The position numbers and the translations under genes were made by a program. 61,679 nt of DNA. Origin: a virus. Below the pieces are notes generated by a model. It made no database searches. It was given only the letters and a program-made list of their open reading frames with translations, and was not told the origin of the DNA. Numbering within the stretch: the first letter of the stretch is position 1; the number at the start of each line of letters is the position of its first letter. Location of the stretch: positions 1-61,679 of the IMG/VR virus record IMGVR_UViG_3300045741_000280, one strand, 5' to 3'. Below, one piece after another: positions 52,293-61,565 of this stretch.

Positions 52293-54824
52293 ATGCCTAT
52301 CAAAATTGAGTCTATAAGTAGTAAAGAAGGAACATCAGCAACCTCCCACAAATTTGTAGCAGTGCCTCAGGGAGCTTTAATAGTAGTTACCACCACATCT
52401 GAGACAAGCAACAGGAACTCATCCATATCTAGTTCCCCCACCCTTGTCTGGGAAAAAACCGATGCCAGTAAGCAAAATAGTGGTGATGCTGAAACCTTTA
52501 CAGCAATACATACGAGTGGGGGAACCCTATCAATCACCAGTAATTGGGGATCTAACACCTATCAAACAAGTGTCGCTTATGTAATAACAGGAGCCCTGCC
52601 AACAGTGGCACCCAAAACTATTGTTAAGGGGCAGGGTGCTCCATCTGCTAGTATTACAGCATCAAATGCTGGAAGTATTCTAATTTGTGTTACATCCGAT
52701 TGGAATGCTGTAGACGGAAAATCAAGGATATATAGAGACGGAGCAGTGGAACAATTTTACGGCACATTGGCTAAGAGAGGGACAGCCTATCACTATATAA
52801 AACAAGTGTTTATTCCTGGAATATATACGGAAGGGCTCACGTCTCCAAATGTACAGAATTCAGGAACTATTGTTCTAAATATAAGTCCTTCAGATGGTGT
52901 AGCCCCCACCACCACAACATCCACAACCACATCATTGCCTACCACAACAACCACCACCACTTCTACAACTACGTTAACGCCCACAACCACCACCACCACA
53001 TCCACCACCACCGCTCAGTCGCCTACAACCACCACCACCACATCCACCACCACCGCTCAGTCGCCTACAACCACAACCACCACCACATCCACCACCACAA
53101 ATAGTGGAGGGTATAATTTACTAATTGAGGGATATGGTTCCCAGGCTATTGGGGGAGCAAACAGTGCTACAATATATCATGTAACCAATCTAAATGCTTC
53201 AGGGCCAGGATCTTTAGCAGCAGGAATTGGTAGTAATAAAACCATTATATTTGATGTTTCCGGAACAATAAATGCAAGACTGACAATCTCAGGTGTTTCA
53301 TATTTAACAATAGATGCCTATTCCAATGGAAAGGATATTACAATAGACAATGGAAATAATGGAGATGCATTAAACGTGGATAATAGTGATCATATTATCA
53401 TTAGGGGATTGAGGTTTATAAATGCCGGAAATGACGGACTAAATGTAACTAATTCTGCTCATGATGTTGCTTTTGACCATTGTTCAGCCTATGGAAATAG
53501 AGATGGAAATATAGATGTGACAGCAGTGACAGGTAAGAATTTCACCGTGCAATACTGTATTCTGGGGAACAATCAGGGTGCAGGCAATATGCTTATAACA
53601 ACTATAAATGCCTCAATCCATCACAACTTGTTTATTGGGGATGGTGCGGCACCAGATGGACAGGAACGTAACCCATATGCCCACAGTAATTATAGTCCAA
53701 AGGGGTCACAATCCAACCCAAATTTCGATTTCCGTAATAATCTTATTCATGCCTCAGGAAGATATGCCAGTGGGGATGGCTACGGGGCAGTTGGCAACTT
53801 TATCAACAATTATTATACGTCCAATAAAGCAGGACTGATAAACCTTTGTGCTGATCCTGCAAGTTGTAGCTCTGCATATGTTTCGGGGAATTTTAATCAA
53901 CCATCTGCAACGGGAGGCACTAGCCTTTCATCAGCATGCACTATTCCCGTACAATATCAAATAGCTACAACAGATGCTACGACAGCTGCTCAATTAGTGT
54001 TACAGAAGGTGGGACCATATGTAAGGAGTGCATATGAAACTTCTGTGATTAATTCAATTGTAATTTCAGGAAATCCCACCACCACTACAACAACATCCAC
54101 CACCCAGCCTGTAGGAACCACTACAACCACTACATCCACTACAACCAAACCTGCAACAACCACCACCACCACATCCACCACCACCCAGCCTACACCTGGA
54201 TATACACTAACCTATCAGAATAATTTTAACGTTCCCGCAGATGTGGATTCCAATCAGCTGGGAAGGGGTGGACTGAGCTCAAATCAATCCGTAAGTGGTG
54301 GGTTTAGTTTTAGATCGGAAGTTAGGGCAGGAGACGCACCTATATCAAGTGGCTGGAGAAGTGAACAACAATATGATGGAGCAAATCAAAATCCAACAGA
54401 AGGTGCAGTGGAGTATGATGTGTATTATGAAAATTGGGGCAATTTTGATGGTGGTGGCCATTCTGTCCAGTGGCACCCAAACACTAGCGGGGGCTCAGCT
54501 ATTATTTCCCTACAGAATTATTCCTCTACATGGGATGTCACTCGTGATCCAAATGGCACAGTTACCCACCAAAATAATGCACCTGCCCACCAATCAAATC
54601 GGTGGTATCATTTACGCTGGGAGTTTAAATGGAGTACAGGAAGTGACGGATATTGTAGGCTATTTGTAGACGGAGTGCAAACATTTAGTTTTAATGGGCC
54701 CACTGCCGATGGTTCAGGCCAATATTTTAAGCTTGGTCAGAATAGATGGCCTTCAGGAAGTGGAAATATGAAAACCACATCTGTATGTTACTATGATAAT
54801 TTAAAAATATATACACGTAATTAA
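52293..54824 (+). CDS. Dual polysaccharide lyase with N-terminal beta-sandwich domain
   Basis: 843 residues. Residues 1-200 are a beta-sandwich domain (ALIVVTTTSETSNRNSSIS, then AYVITG) of a kind found in crAss-like fibre proteins and likely to dock it to the virion. Joint 1 (about 205-270) is Thr/Ser with two 14-residue tandem units ending AQSP. Residues about 272-590 are a pectate-lyase-like beta-helix (RGLRF, FDHCS, NRDGNIDV, HHNLF...ERNP). Joint 2 (595-634) precedes a PF14099-like lyase domain (FRSEVRAG, WRSE, HSVQWHP, YYDNLKIY). Paralogue of the lyase at 47.9 kb, which lacks the N-terminal domain. Confidence 0.75.
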   Translation: MPIKIESISSKEGTSATSHKFVAVPQGALIVVTTTSETSNRNSSISSSPTLVWEKTDASKQNSGDAETFTAIHTSGGTLSITSNWGSNTYQTSVAYVITGALPTVAPKTIVKGQGAPSASITASNAGSILICVTSDWNAVDGKSRIYRDGAVEQFYGTLAKRGTAYHYIKQVFIPGIYTEGLTSPNVQNSGTIVLNISPSDGVAPTTTTSTTTSLPTTTTTTTSTTTLTPTTTTTTSTTTAQSPTTTTTTSTTTAQSPTTTTTTTSTTTNSGGYNLLIEGYGSQAIGGANSATIYHVTNLNASGPGSLAAGIGSNKTIIFDVSGTINARLTISGVSYLTIDAYSNGKDITIDNGNNGDALNVDNSDHIIIRGLRFINAGNDGLNVTNSAHDVAFDHCSAYGNRDGNIDVTAVTGKNFTVQYCILGNNQGAGNMLITTINASIHHNLFIGDGAAPDGQERNPYAHSNYSPKGSQSNPNFDFRNNLIHASGRYASGDGYGAVGNFINNYYTSNKAGLINLCADPASCSSAYVSGNFNQPSATGGTSLSSACTIPVQYQIATTDATTAAQLVLQKVGPYVRSAYETSVINSIVISGNPTTTTTTSTTQPVGTTTTTTSTTTKPATTTTTTSTTTQPTPGYTLTYQNNFNVPADVDSNQLGRGGLSSNQSVSGGFSFRSEVRAGDAPISSGWRSEQQYDGANQNPTEGAVEYDVYYENWGNFDGGGHSVQWHPNTSGGSAIISLQNYSSTWDVTRDPNGTVTHQNNAPAHQSNRWYHLRWEFKWSTGSDGYCRLFVDGVQTFSFNGPTADGSGQYFKLGQNRWPSGSGNMKTTSVCYYDNLKIYTRN
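52983..53103 (+). repeat. 42-bp tandem repeat encoding Thr joint
   Basis: A 42-base unit containing GCTCAGTCGCCT and ACC/ACA/TCC runs occurs twice exactly (GCTCAG at 53013 and 53055) and a third time partially. Each unit encodes TTTTTTSTTTAQSP-like residues. Near-identical DNA copies suggest slippage or recent duplication. Confidence 0.85.
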
Positions 54825-55829: not shown

Positions 55830-56108
55830 ATGGCTACAAACAGAGGATATTCACTTAGTGATTTATATGATGTAAACACCAGATCGGGGTTTTTACAATG
55901 GTTACGGGACAATCTTCCTCTAATAAATGCACTCCCAGCAACACAGGCTGAGGTGAATGCTGGAATAATAAATAATAAATATGTGTCCCCCTTCACACTG
56001 GCACATTCCATATGTTGCGGCGGTGGTGGGGGACTTTTTGATATAGATGGAGGAAATGCATCCTCTATTTACCCACCCCCCAATGCAATGGATGGTGGAG
56101 GAGCCTAA
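55830..56108 (+). CDS. 92-residue fibre-associated protein
   Basis: 92 residues, beginning two bases after the previous stop. The first about 60 residues are helical (LSDLYDVNTRSGFLQWLRDN, and a later NAGIINNKYVSPFTL phrase that occurs at C-termini and linkers of phage fibre proteins). The end is Gly-rich with a CC pair and a stretch of Gly5. It resembles a short fibre-tip or linker protein placed just before the giant fibre. Confidence 0.5.
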   Translation: MATNRGYSLSDLYDVNTRSGFLQWLRDNLPLINALPATQAEVNAGIINNKYVSPFTLAHSICCGGGGGLFDIDGGNASSIYPPPNAMDGGGA

Positions 56109-56129: not shown

Positions 56130-59100
56130 ATCGCAGTTATAATTCAGATAAGACGTGACCTTGCGGCAAATTGGGTCGCAGCCAATCCCATTCTCGCATC
56201 TGGAGAAATAGGGCTAGAAACTGATGTCTATCCCCATCCCTTTAAAATAGGAAATGGGGTGACACCATGGAACGGACTAGGCTATGAGTTTAATGGTGTA
56301 GGAGGTGGTGGCACGGTGTCAGCAGGAACACAGACATTAAGCCTGGGTAGTCTTATTTTTTCCAATGCCCATGGAGTGAGTTTTGGGCTTAGCTCAAACA
56401 CCATAACTGCTTCTGTTAAAACAGATTATCAATCATCTAATGCCAACTATCTAACATCCCAATCCAACCAAGCTGTTTCTGGATCTAATGGCTCATTTAC
56501 ATTCCAAACTATTAGCTTTGGTAATTCAAATGGGCTTTCTTTTTATACGTCCAATGGCTCGGTGGTGGGATCATACACTACCCCTGCTGGTACGAATTCT
56601 TCCTTTACGGTTTCTGCTGGAACAAGGAGTGAGACAATTAGCCAATTAGTGTTTTCTAATTCTAACGGCATATCTTTTGGACTTACAGGTGGCACTGTAA
56701 CAGCTACAGTGAAGACAGATTATCAATCTTCCGGAGCTTATTTGACGACAGCAATGCTTTCTAATGCTGTTACAATAAGTAATATTAATGTTTCTGGTGG
56801 CACTACGTCAAGCAATCTATCTAATTTCAAACTAATTGACTCCAATGGAGTGTCATGGAGCCTTGATACAGGGTCCAAGATTTATGCCTCTGTCAAAACC
56901 GACTATCAATCCTCTGGAGCCTATCTCACCACGCAGAGTGGGCAAGCATTTAGCGCAGATGCATCCAGTACATTCCAAACCCTTGTATTACAGGATTCTA
57001 ATGGAATTTCCTTTAGTAATAATGCTGGATCACTGAGACTCACTCACGGGCTACAATACACATCTGCCACATCAAACATCACCTCCAACGCCTTAAACAC
57101 TTCCGCTTCAAGGGTGATAAACATTGTAGCGGCTACAAATAACACTGGAGGCGGCACTGCATCCCTTTCTAGCAATGTATCCTTTTCGAATGTTAATGGT
57201 GCTACATTCTACACATCAGCCGGAAATGCTGTAGCCCTATCCTACACTGTACCAACACAAAGTAATCAGAATATTTCTTTATTTGCTCTGGGGAATACAA
57301 CACAAAATAGCTCCACTGTTCTCAATGCCTCCAATCTTTCATTTAATGGGCTAGGAATAGTTACGATGGGGTATTCCAATGGGAGTGTACAGGTGTCAGC
57401 ATCTCAGTCAACAGTGGCACAGAACATCTCACTATTTGCACTAAATCAAACCACACAGAATTCTTCTACAGCGCTGAGTGCCAATGCTCTATCAATAGCT
57501 GGTAGAGGAATTGTCACTGTAGGATATTCCAATGGATCTATACAGATAAGTGCAACGGAGGTGGCACAAACTAACCAAACTGTTGGTGTTTATGCATCCT
57601 CCCAAACTACAGGAAGCGCCTCTTCTGCCACCTATGACGCCAGGAGCTTGTCCATTATAGGAGCAGGAATAATTTCTATAGGTAATCACTCCACTTCTGC
57701 CGGAGGCACCACCACTGGGATTATTATTTCTGCGTCACAATCAGCGGACACTGCAAAAGCAGGCACTGGATTTACTAGTGCAGGAAACAATATTGGACTA
57801 ACAGGAACACTCAACACAAATGGCCTATCTCTTTCAGCCACTGTAGCTGCCCAAACCAATCAGACAGTGGGAATTTATGCATCCTCTCAAACAACGGGAA
57901 GTGCTTCTTCGGGCACATATGATGCTAGGAGTTTATCATTTATTGGTGCCGGAGCAATTTCTATAGGAAATCATTCAACCTCCGCTGGAGGCACCACTAC
58001 AGGAATAATTATTTCTGCACCTGTCCAATCTGTACAAACTCAAAATGTACACAATCTAACACTATCAGGAAACTCCACTTCTGCCGGAGCCGGATATATA
58101 CAGGTGTCATCTGGAACACTTACGTTGGCAGGTGGTAATAATATCACTCTTTCCCAAAATGGGAACGCCATCACTATTTCTGGTCCAAATGTAGGAGGAG
58201 CTCAAACTGGTATATCTGGTATTGCAGCTTCTAACACTACATATACATCAGGGAGTGTAACATTCAGAGATGGTAATGGAATAAGCTGGGCATCTACAAC
58301 AGGACAGCAAATATCCATCACTCACGATTTACAATTTACAAGTAACACTAGTGCAATCACTTCAAATGCTTTGAATACATCTGCAAGCAGCAGATTTATA
58401 CAAAATTGGAAATTAACGGGAAACACGGCAGGAACCACGTCTTCTGCACAGGGCTCTGATTTATGGCTGGCTGGTGGAAACGGAGTGACAATTTCAGGAA
58501 GTAGTAACACCCTTTCTTTTTCAGTGGCCACTAATTATCAGAGTCAGGGGGCCTATCTCACCACTGCTATGCAATCAAATGCAGCCACTATTTCAAATAT
58601 CAATGTTTCAGGCGGTACTACATCTAGTAATCTTTCAAATTTCAAATTAATTGATTCCAATGGTGTTAGCTGGTCTCTTGACACTGGTAGCAAAATATAT
58701 GCAACAGTGAAGACAGACTATTTAACAACAGCGATGGCTTCTAATGCCTCTACACAGTTTGTTCAGGCTAATGCTGGATTTAATGGTACTAACGCTTCGG
58801 GCACAATAGCTAGTAATTCCATATCTGTTTCTGTAGCAGCGCAAACTAATCAAACGATAGGAATATATGGTAGTAGCCAGACAACAGGCTCAGCATCTAG
58901 TGGAACATATGATGCCCGTTCTCTTTCCTTTATTGGAGCTGGTATTATCAGTATTGGTAATCACTCTACGTCTGCTGGTGGTACTACTAACGGTGTTATT
59001 ATATCTGCTATACAATCTGTGGATACTAATAAGGCTGGCACTGGATTTACAACAGCAGGAAATAACATAGGTTTATCAGGTACTTTAAATACTAACGGAT

Positions 59101-61565
59101 TATCTTTATCTGCTACAGTTGCTGCACAGACCAATCAAACTGTTGGCCTATATGCCTTAGGTAACACCACTCAAAATTCATCCACTACACTAGATGCAAG
59201 AACTCTTTCTTTAAATGGGTTGGGAAATATAACTGTTGGATATAGTAATGGTAGTGTACAAATATCAGGAAGTCAGTCCACTGTTCCGCAAAATGTATCC
59301 CTGTTTGCACTGGGTAATACCACTCAAAATAGCAGTTCGCAGTTATCTGTTAATGCTCTATCTTTAAATGCCATTGGTTCACTTACAATAGGATATTCAA
59401 ATGGTTCTATACAATTTAGTGCTCCTAATGCCCTAACTACGCAATCCGTACAGACACAGAGTAGATTTAACCTAACTCTATCTGGTAATTCTACATCAGG
59501 AGGAGGAGGATATATACAAATATCTTCAGGCGTAATGACCTTAGCCGGAGGAAATAACATAACTCTTTCTCAGGATGGAAATGCTGTCACCATATCTGCC
59601 GGGGCTGGAGGAGCTGCAACAGCTATTTCTGGTGTAATAGGCTCTAATACCACTTACACTTCCGGGTCTGTTTCCCTCAGAGATTTAAATGGTATTAGTT
59701 GGCAATCTACAACTGGGCAAGCATTTCAAATAACCCATGACTTGCAATACACCTCTAACACAAGTAACATCACGTCTAATGCTCTGAACACTTCCGCGTC
59801 AAGAGTTCAGGCTATCATGGTTGGTACGGCTACAAACGCCGCAACGAATCAGACATCTGTACTTTCAGGTACTATTACACTTAGTAATTTAAACGGAATA
59901 TCATTTTATTCAACAGCAAGTGGGGCAACGTCAGGTATTGCTGCAAGTTACACCGTACCCACTGTAACTAATAGTTCATTTTCCGTACAGGATAGCGCCA
60001 CTACAATTAATCCAGTAAACAGGATAGCTTTCAGTACAGGAAATAATATTACACTTTCCCTATCAACAGGTGCAAGTAGCGTAACAGTTGGTGTAGCACA
60101 CAATCTTGCAGGAACATCTACTGGATTCACAGGTGGTGCTTCTATAAGCGGCTCTATGACACACAATTCAAGTGGGTTGGCAATTTCATTAAGCCATCCG
60201 GCATGGATAAGTTCGCAAACAAATCAGACAGTGGGAATGTATGCCGTTTCAAACACCACCCAAAATTCATCAACCACATTGGATGCACGCACTCTATCAT
60301 TTCAGGGAGCTGGTGTGGCCTCTGTAGGATTTTCTAATGGATCGGTGATAATATCTGTTCCGTCAGGAGGAGGCGGATTAACAAATATAAATGTTAGTGG
60401 TGGCACTACATCAAGCAACCTTTCCAACTTTAAATTAATTGATTCCAACGGTGTGTCGTGGTCATTAGATACGGGATCAAAAATATACGCAACAGTAAAA
60501 ACAGACTATCTTACCACCCAAACCAACCAAACAGTGGGTGTATATGCAAGTTCCCAGACAACGGGTTCTGTATCATCCTACACCTATGATGCAAGAAGTT
60601 TATCAATTATAGGTGCGGGAGGAATTTCCATTGGTAACAATTCAACAAGTGCCGGAGGAACAACAACCGGAATATTAATATCAGCACCGGCTACATCGTC
60701 TCTTTCAGGAACAGGGCAGGTTAGTATAGCCATTAATGGAGCAACAATATCAATCGGAGTTCCCAACCCATATATTTCATCTTACCAGAATTTACCCTCA
60801 ATAGCGGCATCTTCGTTATTAACATGGGGAGCTACATCTCTATCTCATGCAGCGGCATTTAATTTACCAGAGCAGGGATCATTTAGCTTTATTCGGATTC
60901 CTGCTTTAATGACTACTAATAGCACCACTATAGCTACATTAGCTTCTGCTACAGCATCGGCCTCAGGAGCTTTATATAGCACTATTAACGCTGTTGTTTA
61001 TTCATTAGGAGTGGGAGCAAGTTCAAAGAGTTTACAATACGTTACAAGTGGACAGGGTTTATATACAATGTCTCAGCAAATAAGTGTTACAAATAGTACA
61101 CAGGCAAGCTATTCTTTAGGATTCACCGCAGAAGTGGAAGGACAGGCTGGACGAACTAATTTAACAACTCAATATTCTGTAAGTAACACCAACTATTCAT
61201 TTACTACAAACCAAATAGCAACCAATTTTTCAAGTGCAAGATTTTTAGACATACCATTCGCTGCCTCATTATCAGCCGGGCCATATTGGATGATAGTAGG
61301 AATGAGTTCCTCTTCCGCATCAGGAGGAGCAGCAGGGTTGGCGGCTCTCACTAATTGTAATGTAAGATATTCAGGACATTATGGAGTGTCACAGGCAGTG
61401 CTATCTATGGGTGTAATGGGTTCAACAAACTTATCAACTCAGGGGTTGGGAGCAGGATCATTCTCCACAGCTGGAGGTGGTACAACTAATTCCCTACCAA
61501 TTTCAGCTATTTCTTCTATGGCTAGTAATGCCATGGTTTATTTCCAAATGTTGAGAAGTGCATAA
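56130..61565 (+). CDS. Giant repeat-rich fibre with Mtd-type N-terminal domain (ATC start?)
   Basis: About 1811 residues if begun at ATC 56130; the first conventional start (GTG 56259) would cut into the N-terminal domain. The frame is open from 56118, and 56130 onward encodes x-AVIIQIRRDLAANWVAAN...ASGEIGLETD...FKIGNG, the well-conserved major-tropism-determinant-like N-terminal attachment domain of phage fibres, whose homologues begin M-A-V-x-I-Q-x-R-R. The shaft (about 60-1560) is made of recurring beta modules such as SLFALGNTTQNSS, YASSQTTGSASS and INVSGGTTSSNLSNFK. The C-terminal about 270 residues form a distinct non-repetitive domain, likely the receptor-binding tip. Next gene overlaps by TAATG. 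Confidence 0.8.
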   Translation: MAVIIQIRRDLAANWVAANPILASGEIGLETDVYPHPFKIGNGVTPWNGLGYEFNGVGGGGTVSAGTQTLSLGSLIFSNAHGVSFGLSSNTITASVKTDYQSSNANYLTSQSNQAVSGSNGSFTFQTISFGNSNGLSFYTSNGSVVGSYTTPAGTNSSFTVSAGTRSETISQLVFSNSNGISFGLTGGTVTATVKTDYQSSGAYLTTAMLSNAVTISNINVSGGTTSSNLSNFKLIDSNGVSWSLDTGSKIYASVKTDYQSSGAYLTTQSGQAFSADASSTFQTLVLQDSNGISFSNNAGSLRLTHGLQYTSATSNITSNALNTSASRVINIVAATNNTGGGTASLSSNVSFSNVNGATFYTSAGNAVALSYTVPTQSNQNISLFALGNTTQNSSTVLNASNLSFNGLGIVTMGYSNGSVQVSASQSTVAQNISLFALNQTTQNSSTALSANALSIAGRGIVTVGYSNGSIQISATEVAQTNQTVGVYASSQTTGSASSATYDARSLSIIGAGIISIGNHSTSAGGTTTGIIISASQSADTAKAGTGFTSAGNNIGLTGTLNTNGLSLSATVAAQTNQTVGIYASSQTTGSASSGTYDARSLSFIGAGAISIGNHSTSAGGTTTGIIISAPVQSVQTQNVHNLTLSGNSTSAGAGYIQVSSGTLTLAGGNNITLSQNGNAITISGPNVGGAQTGISGIAASNTTYTSGSVTFRDGNGISWASTTGQQISITHDLQFTSNTSAITSNALNTSASSRFIQNWKLTGNTAGTTSSAQGSDLWLAGGNGVTISGSSNTLSFSVATNYQSQGAYLTTAMQSNAATISNINVSGGTTSSNLSNFKLIDSNGVSWSLDTGSKIYATVKTDYLTTAMASNASTQFVQANAGFNGTNASGTIASNSISVSVAAQTNQTIGIYGSSQTTGSASSGTYDARSLSFIGAGIISIGNHSTSAGGTTNGVIISAIQSVDTNKAGTGFTTAGNNIGLSGTLNTNGLSLSATVAAQTNQTVGLYALGNTTQNSSTTLDARTLSLNGLGNITVGYSNGSVQISGSQSTVPQNVSLFALGNTTQNSSSQLSVNALSLNAIGSLTIGYSNGSIQFSAPNALTTQSVQTQSRFNLTLSGNSTSGGGGYIQISSGVMTLAGGNNITLSQDGNAVTISAGAGGAATAISGVIGSNTTYTSGSVSLRDLNGISWQSTTGQAFQITHDLQYTSNTSNITSNALNTSASRVQAIMVGTATNAATNQTSVLSGTITLSNLNGISFYSTASGATSGIAASYTVPTVTNSSFSVQDSATTINPVNRIAFSTGNNITLSLSTGASSVTVGVAHNLAGTSTGFTGGASISGSMTHNSSGLAISLSHPAWISSQTNQTVGMYAVSNTTQNSSTTLDARTLSFQGAGVASVGFSNGSVIISVPSGGGGLTNINVSGGTTSSNLSNFKLIDSNGVSWSLDTGSKIYATVKTDYLTTQTNQTVGVYASSQTTGSVSSYTYDARSLSIIGAGGISIGNNSTSAGGTTTGILISAPATSSLSGTGQVSIAINGATISIGVPNPYISSYQNLPSIAASSLLTWGATSLSHAAAFNLPEQGSFSFIRIPALMTTNSTTIATLASATASASGALYSTINAVVYSLGVGASSKSLQYVTSGQGLYTMSQQISVTNSTQASYSLGFTAEVEGQAGRTNLTTQYSVSNTNYSFTTNQIATNFSSARFLDIPFAASLSAGPYWMIVGMSSSSASGGAAGLAALTNCNVRYSGHYGVSQAVLSMGVMGSTNLSTQGLGAGSFSTAGGGTTNSLPISAISSMASNAMVYFQMLRSA
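56781..56906 (+). repeat. Recoded fibre repeat, copy 1
   Basis: 42 codons encoding the module INVSGGTTSSNLSNFK...DTGSKIYASVKTDY. It recurs at 58596 and 60384 with near-identical protein and extensive synonymous differences. Confidence 0.9.
58596..58721 (+). repeat. Recoded fibre repeat, copy 2
   Basis: Same 42-residue module as copy 1 with one Ser-to-Thr change. Codons for Ser, Gly, Thr and Leu are largely different. Confidence 0.9.
60384..60509 (+). repeat. Recoded fibre repeat, copy 3
   Basis: Same module again. By my codon-by-codon count it differs from copy 1 at 24 synonymous codons and one amino acid out of 42. Confidence 0.9.

Follow-up and report, generated by a model that had tools for sequence, protein, structure and literature searches.

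Synonymous saturation between repeat modules nearly identical in protein in a phage fibre gene family

A modular fibre gene in a crassvirus-like genome

The window, that is, the whole stretch of 61,679 nucleotides analysed here (IMG/VR record IMGVR_UViG_3300045741_000280), comes from a crassvirus as judged by its major capsid protein (PF23898, E = 9e-22; PHROG 11589), for which we found 39 relatives at 57 to 76%. Within the fibre cluster of this genome lies a long gene built of repeated modules, with the following features.

56187..61565, + strand: fibre gene with a modular build, about 1,790 codons (open reading frame)
56781..56906, + strand: 42-residue module, copy 1, in frame with the fibre
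58596..58721, + strand: 42-residue module, copy 2, with an upstream extension from 58536
60384..60509, + strand: 42-residue module, copy 3, in frame with the fibre
57564..57734, + strand: second module type (YASSQTTGSASS...GNHSTSAGGTT), copy 1, protein repeat
57849..58019, + strand: second module type, copy 2, 57 amino acids, 93% identical to copy 1
58833..59009, + strand: second module type, copy 3, protein repeat
60519..60686, + strand: second module type, copy 4, protein repeat
57756..57872, + strand: third repeat (AGTGFT.AGNNIGL.GTLNTNGLSLSATVAAQTNQTVG), copy 1, sharing 95% identity with copy 2
59031..59147, + strand: third repeat, copy 2, protein repeat
60690..61562, + strand: C-terminal domain, the probable tip, common to loci L045 (56% identity), L094, and L001

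The reading frame is open from 56118, and no ATG, GTG, or TTG precedes the first GTG at 56259. This GTG falls within the apparent N-terminal domain, and the residues upstream of it resemble a domain start (AVIIQIRRDLAANW...FKIGNGVTPWNGLGYEF). The true start of the fibre may be a rare codon. The ORF at 55830-56108 is cut off from the fibre frame by in-frame stops. The homology between copies 1 and 2 of the 42-residue module reaches upstream to 56721 in copy 1, giving 62 amino acids at 94% identity. The structure model of the C-terminal domain was beta-rich but of low confidence, and predictions for the module and for this domain reached a pLDDT of 48 with no useful fold match.

Copies with nearly the same protein share codons only at the level of chance

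An earlier note on this DNA reported that the three 42-residue copies are identical at 41 or 42 of 42 residues and that copies 1 and 3 differ by 24 synonymous codons and a single replacement, including switches of serine between the TCN and AGY families. Our alignments reproduced these counts exactly, switches included; copies 1 and 2 differ by 25 synonymous codons and 1 replacement, copies 2 and 3 by 22 synonymous codons and none. In order to place such differences on a common scale, we used a measure termed codon memory. It equals (observed − expected)/(n − expected), where the count is that of identical codons at positions with the same residue only and the expectation supposes independent draws from the codon usage of the gene itself; a value of 1 denotes identical DNA and a value of 0 saturation. 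Identical codons number 15 in copy pair 1/2 (16.1 expected), 16 in pair 1/3 (16.1 expected), and 19 in pair 2/3 (16.3 expected). Protein identity thus lies beyond chance while codon identity lies exactly at it, and since the agreement is that of independent draws, no DNA memory is left between these copies. A convergent origin was rejected on the strength of the 42 identical residues.

The second module behaves in the same way, as the note had also proposed: it lies at 57591, 57876, 58866, and 60543, where the note had placed it, and the copies are 84 to 93% identical to one another over the aligned segments, with no codon memory. The two copies of the third repeat likewise combine 95% protein identity with codon agreement at chance. 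When 11 repeat segments of the gene were pooled, 188 codons were identical versus 201.9 expected (z = −1.2). Together, these results establish that the copies in the window are at synonymous saturation: the memory of their common DNA is gone, and they differ neither more nor less than chance predicts.

Exact repeats gave the same picture. The longest one in the 5.4-kb fibre gene is 18 bp, compared with a mean of 19.9 bp in codon-shuffled versions, and the numbers of 12-mers (42 versus 40.6), 16-mers (7 versus 7.6), and 20-mers match synonymous-codon shuffles within error. Third-position GC is uniform over the length of the gene (z = 0.0).

The note had contrasted the fibre modules with Thr joints elsewhere in the cluster, described as near-identical in DNA. 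This holds for tandem joints: the Thr-rich joints at 52983-53074, in a lyase-like gene at 52293-54824, contain the longest exact repeat of the window, 50 bp, whose two occurrences start near 52983 and 53025. The remaining Thr joints show codon differences.

The fibre family is spread over many uncultivated phages

A search of IMG/VR with the whole fibre returned one distant relative and no close one. With the module as query, we obtained 60 loci which, combined with earlier matches, make about 58 distinct genes of 33 to 70% GC. Among the carriers sampled, at least 6 major-capsid families are represented, namely, the window crassvirus capsid and 5 PHROG major-head families. In annotated collections, matches were scarce: tblastn found none in cultured phages, where the BLAST low-complexity filter may hide weak ones; GTDB genomes gave one weak match only; and Pfam, PHROGs, and the PDB gave only weak, short matches, below curated cut-offs where these are given and none of them convincing. 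Although the window genome is crassvirus-like and the gene sits in a fibre cluster as crassvirus tail fibres do, the family was found mostly in other phages, and 0 of the 17 crassvirus capsid relatives tested, many of which are fragments, carry it.

The wording of the window modules was absent from the other contigs found, the best other match reaching 79% (L042), and the window-specific motif NGVSWSLDT matched L042 and, by chance, L168, and nothing else. The nearest protein neighbour of a module resides in the same gene in 82 of 211 and 53 of 239 cases versus 5.6 and 6.9 expected. Codon memory within these same-gene nearest-neighbour pairs is only 0.08 and 0.14 to 0.16. Protein ancestry is therefore still visible among copies within a gene, and codon ancestry is nearly lost.

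Two low-GC phages, L046 (IMGVR_UViG_3300009545_000018, a very large contig of 447,763 bases) and L047, each carry two adjoining family fibres with 7 to 13 module copies per fibre. Shifts of third-position GC occur inside the fibre genes L084:5453-9715, L058:5852-8095, and L086:3-4178; in L084 the value is about 0.45 and then 0.85 to 0.92 over the last 240 codons. These shifts suggest recent swaps of the C-terminal tip.

Low codon memory at high protein identity is a property of the family

We compared ungapped segments across the family that were 34 or more residues long and had 95 to 100% protein identity; whole-gene BLASTP alignments were dropped, since gapped alignments mix modules. Within genes, 62 pairs from 20 genes had a pooled codon memory of 0.079, and between genes, 101 pairs from 43 gene pairs had a pooled memory of 0.043. 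These segments were picked for high identity and average constraint is weaker, the mean identity of modules within a gene being about 0.65. The block common to L046 and L047 is 98.3% identical over 117 amino acids with a memory of 0.04. Low codon memory at high protein identity is a property of the whole family and not of the window alone.

As a control we turned to bacterial Ig-like adhesin repeats (PF19077, PF17963), because the non-fibre ORFs of the same loci contained almost no repeats beyond further family fibres and collagen-like GTS repeats. At 90% identity or more, the adhesin repeats, a small set of 16 genes, had a memory of 0.64 to 0.76, with none below 0.2. They resemble the fibre in carrying repeated extracellular domains of at least 90% identity in one gene but are recent copies, whereas the fibre modules are at about 0.08. 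Single-copy orthologues of crassviruses had a memory of 0.65 at 90 to 95% identity and 0.88 at 98 to 100%, again with none below 0.2. Among 4,724 pairs of ordinary genes less than 70% identical, there were 6 segments of 95% identity, with a median memory of 0.08; strong conservation with little memory thus exists in ordinary genes but is rare there. Extreme conservation also occurs outside the fibre: in the carrier phages, a few capsid genes combine 92 to 98% identity with a codon memory near 0.2. Between L057 and L066, fibre and core genes have a similar synonymous age: the fibre is 90% identical over 248 amino acids with a memory of 0.15, the core 72% identical with a memory of 0.08. The fibre being the more conserved at similar synonymous age, a slow protein suffices, without fast synonymous change.

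Serine class memory outlasts third-base memory

The TCN/AGY switch of serine is the sole synonymous change without a single-base synonymous path; the leucine and arginine classes have one. Within genes, memory of the serine class was 0.27 [0.18, 0.36] versus 0.05 [0.02, 0.07] for third bases, and between phages it was 0.125 versus 0.042, while the memory of the leucine and arginine classes was indistinguishable from zero. In the window, the adjoining copies at 57564 and 57849, which form the youngest-looking pair, keep 11 of 11 serine classes with third bases that are random; copies that lie farther apart retain little memory of either kind. A serine class that decays after the third bases is what stepwise ageing by single substitutions predicts; wholesale recoding would scramble both equally.

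Probable old duplications under purifying selection

We consider it probable that the pattern results from old duplications and extreme purifying selection on the protein, and not from deliberate recoding. Of the two explanations offered in the note, this is the one that the data favor: memory is zero at 98 to 100% protein identity, other phages behave alike, the serine class is slower, and dS is near saturation with near-zero dN inside one gene. The maximum-likelihood codon dN/dS of the window gene is 0.003; fixing it at 0.01 costs 5 log units, at 0.02, which is rejected, 12, and at 0.1, 51, although these likelihoods are approximate and serve only as guides, since the pairs overlap. Younger duplicates in L042, L054, L055, and L068 have a dN/dS of 0.07 to 0.14, which implies that the very low value starts after an early phase or holds for some copies only, and they supply a continuum of intermediate pairs.

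On this reading the fibre draws on an old stock of short modules of about 37 to 57 residues. Modules were duplicated within the gene, as the excess of same-gene nearest neighbours shows, and the copies persisted until each synonymous site had been replaced several times, as shown by codon agreement at independence. Selection meanwhile purged nearly all amino acid changes (dN/dS of about 0.003 in the window gene), so that synonymous sites drifted to saturation around a static protein and no recoding process is needed. The constraint may be structural, each module contributing one beta unit to an oligomeric shaft whose residues are nearly all packed; such a shaft would account for the recurrence of the same wording in unrelated phages. 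Besides the higher dN/dS of the younger duplicates and the choice of segments for high identity, two further points run counter to this reading. The wording of the window is unique among the contigs found, so its residues are not fixed everywhere, and the structure models, at their pLDDT of 48, give no explanation for the constraint.

Recombination might have a part at an earlier stage. Duplicates with identical DNA could be quickly deleted by recombination, leaving only synonymously diverged copies to survive. We think this unlikely; if it were true, the fibres would be naturally recoded repeat genes, in which scrambling starts by selection for genome stability and finishes by drift under protein constraint.

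The other explanation in the note was that synonymous divergence is itself selected, since recombination between repeats of identical DNA would delete modules of the shaft. Synonymous choice against unstable DNA repeats has a precedent in codon choice that avoids mononucleotide runs, which Ackermann and Chao (2006, PMC1378130) ascribe to selection for stable DNA, and the window gene indeed has no exact repeat longer than 18 bp despite its 42-residue identity. Nor does any family gene have one longer than 80 bp, although short-read assembly breaks longer repeats and could hide them. In L069, 35 identical residues (fibre codons 490 and 772) share just 3 of 33 codons versus 12.3 to 12.5 expected (z = −3.3 to −3.5), the most extreme pair seen and the clearest case below chance. 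However, z falls below −2 in just 2 of the 46 family genes, the window gene is at −1.2, and the left tail at z < −2 amounts to 2.4%, as by chance. Unlike the mononucleotide runs of that study, the fibre shows no depletion of repeats relative to codon shuffles, and across the family 20-mer exact repeats are enriched 8.35-fold over the shuffle expectation. Modules in different phages, which are unable to delete each other, are equally saturated. In addition, the loss of serine class memory lags that of third bases, and selection should cease once recombination ceases, which would leave partial memory. As neither codon identity nor exact repeats nor saturation between phages supports selected recoding, we regard it as quite improbable.

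Separate acquisition of the copies, each with the codons of a different donor phage, would fit with modules common to phages of at least 6 capsid families and 33 to 70% GC and with the fibres of L084 and L058, which are mosaics in composition. Yet the homogeneous third-position GC of the window gene rejects a recent origin in donors that differ in composition, no other contig found has the wording of its modules, and same-gene copies are nearest neighbours far above expectation (82/211 and 53/239 versus 5.6 and 6.9). Such donors would still require equally extreme protein conservation, and we hold little expectation that the copies arose in this way. Finally, rewriting of codons by hypermutation or copying, for instance by a diversity-generating retroelement or some other template-based process, is highly improbable: full scrambling with an unchanged protein does resemble protein-level copying, but the changes span all third bases and are synonymous instead of being adenine-directed replacements, and ageing is graded with intermediate pairs present.

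Fibre shafts, and protein repeats in general, are usually thought of as fast-changing. Here, a fibre family absent from the annotated collections searched has kept its wording through complete synonymous turnover in many uncultivated phage lineages, and in comparable cases more strictly than the neighbouring core genes. This makes it well suited to the question of what holds the sequence of a shaft in place residue by residue. Repeats of one protein were found, across life, to be under strongly relaxed purifying selection compared with orthologues, in an analysis that assigned no dN/dS to pairs with pS ≥ 0.75 (Persi, Wolf and Koonin 2016, PMC5120217). The fibre modules, too, are paralogous repeats of a single protein to which dN/dS comparison was applied, but their within-gene pairs are synonymously saturated with a dN/dS near 0.003; the family is an exception to relaxed selection, of a kind that a saturation filter would miss. 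Codon memory provides a ready yardstick by which old repeats can be told from young ones, whatever the gene. Collagen-like GTS repeats in three crassvirus relatives of the window (L008, L037, and L039) also contain near-identical stretches without codon memory.
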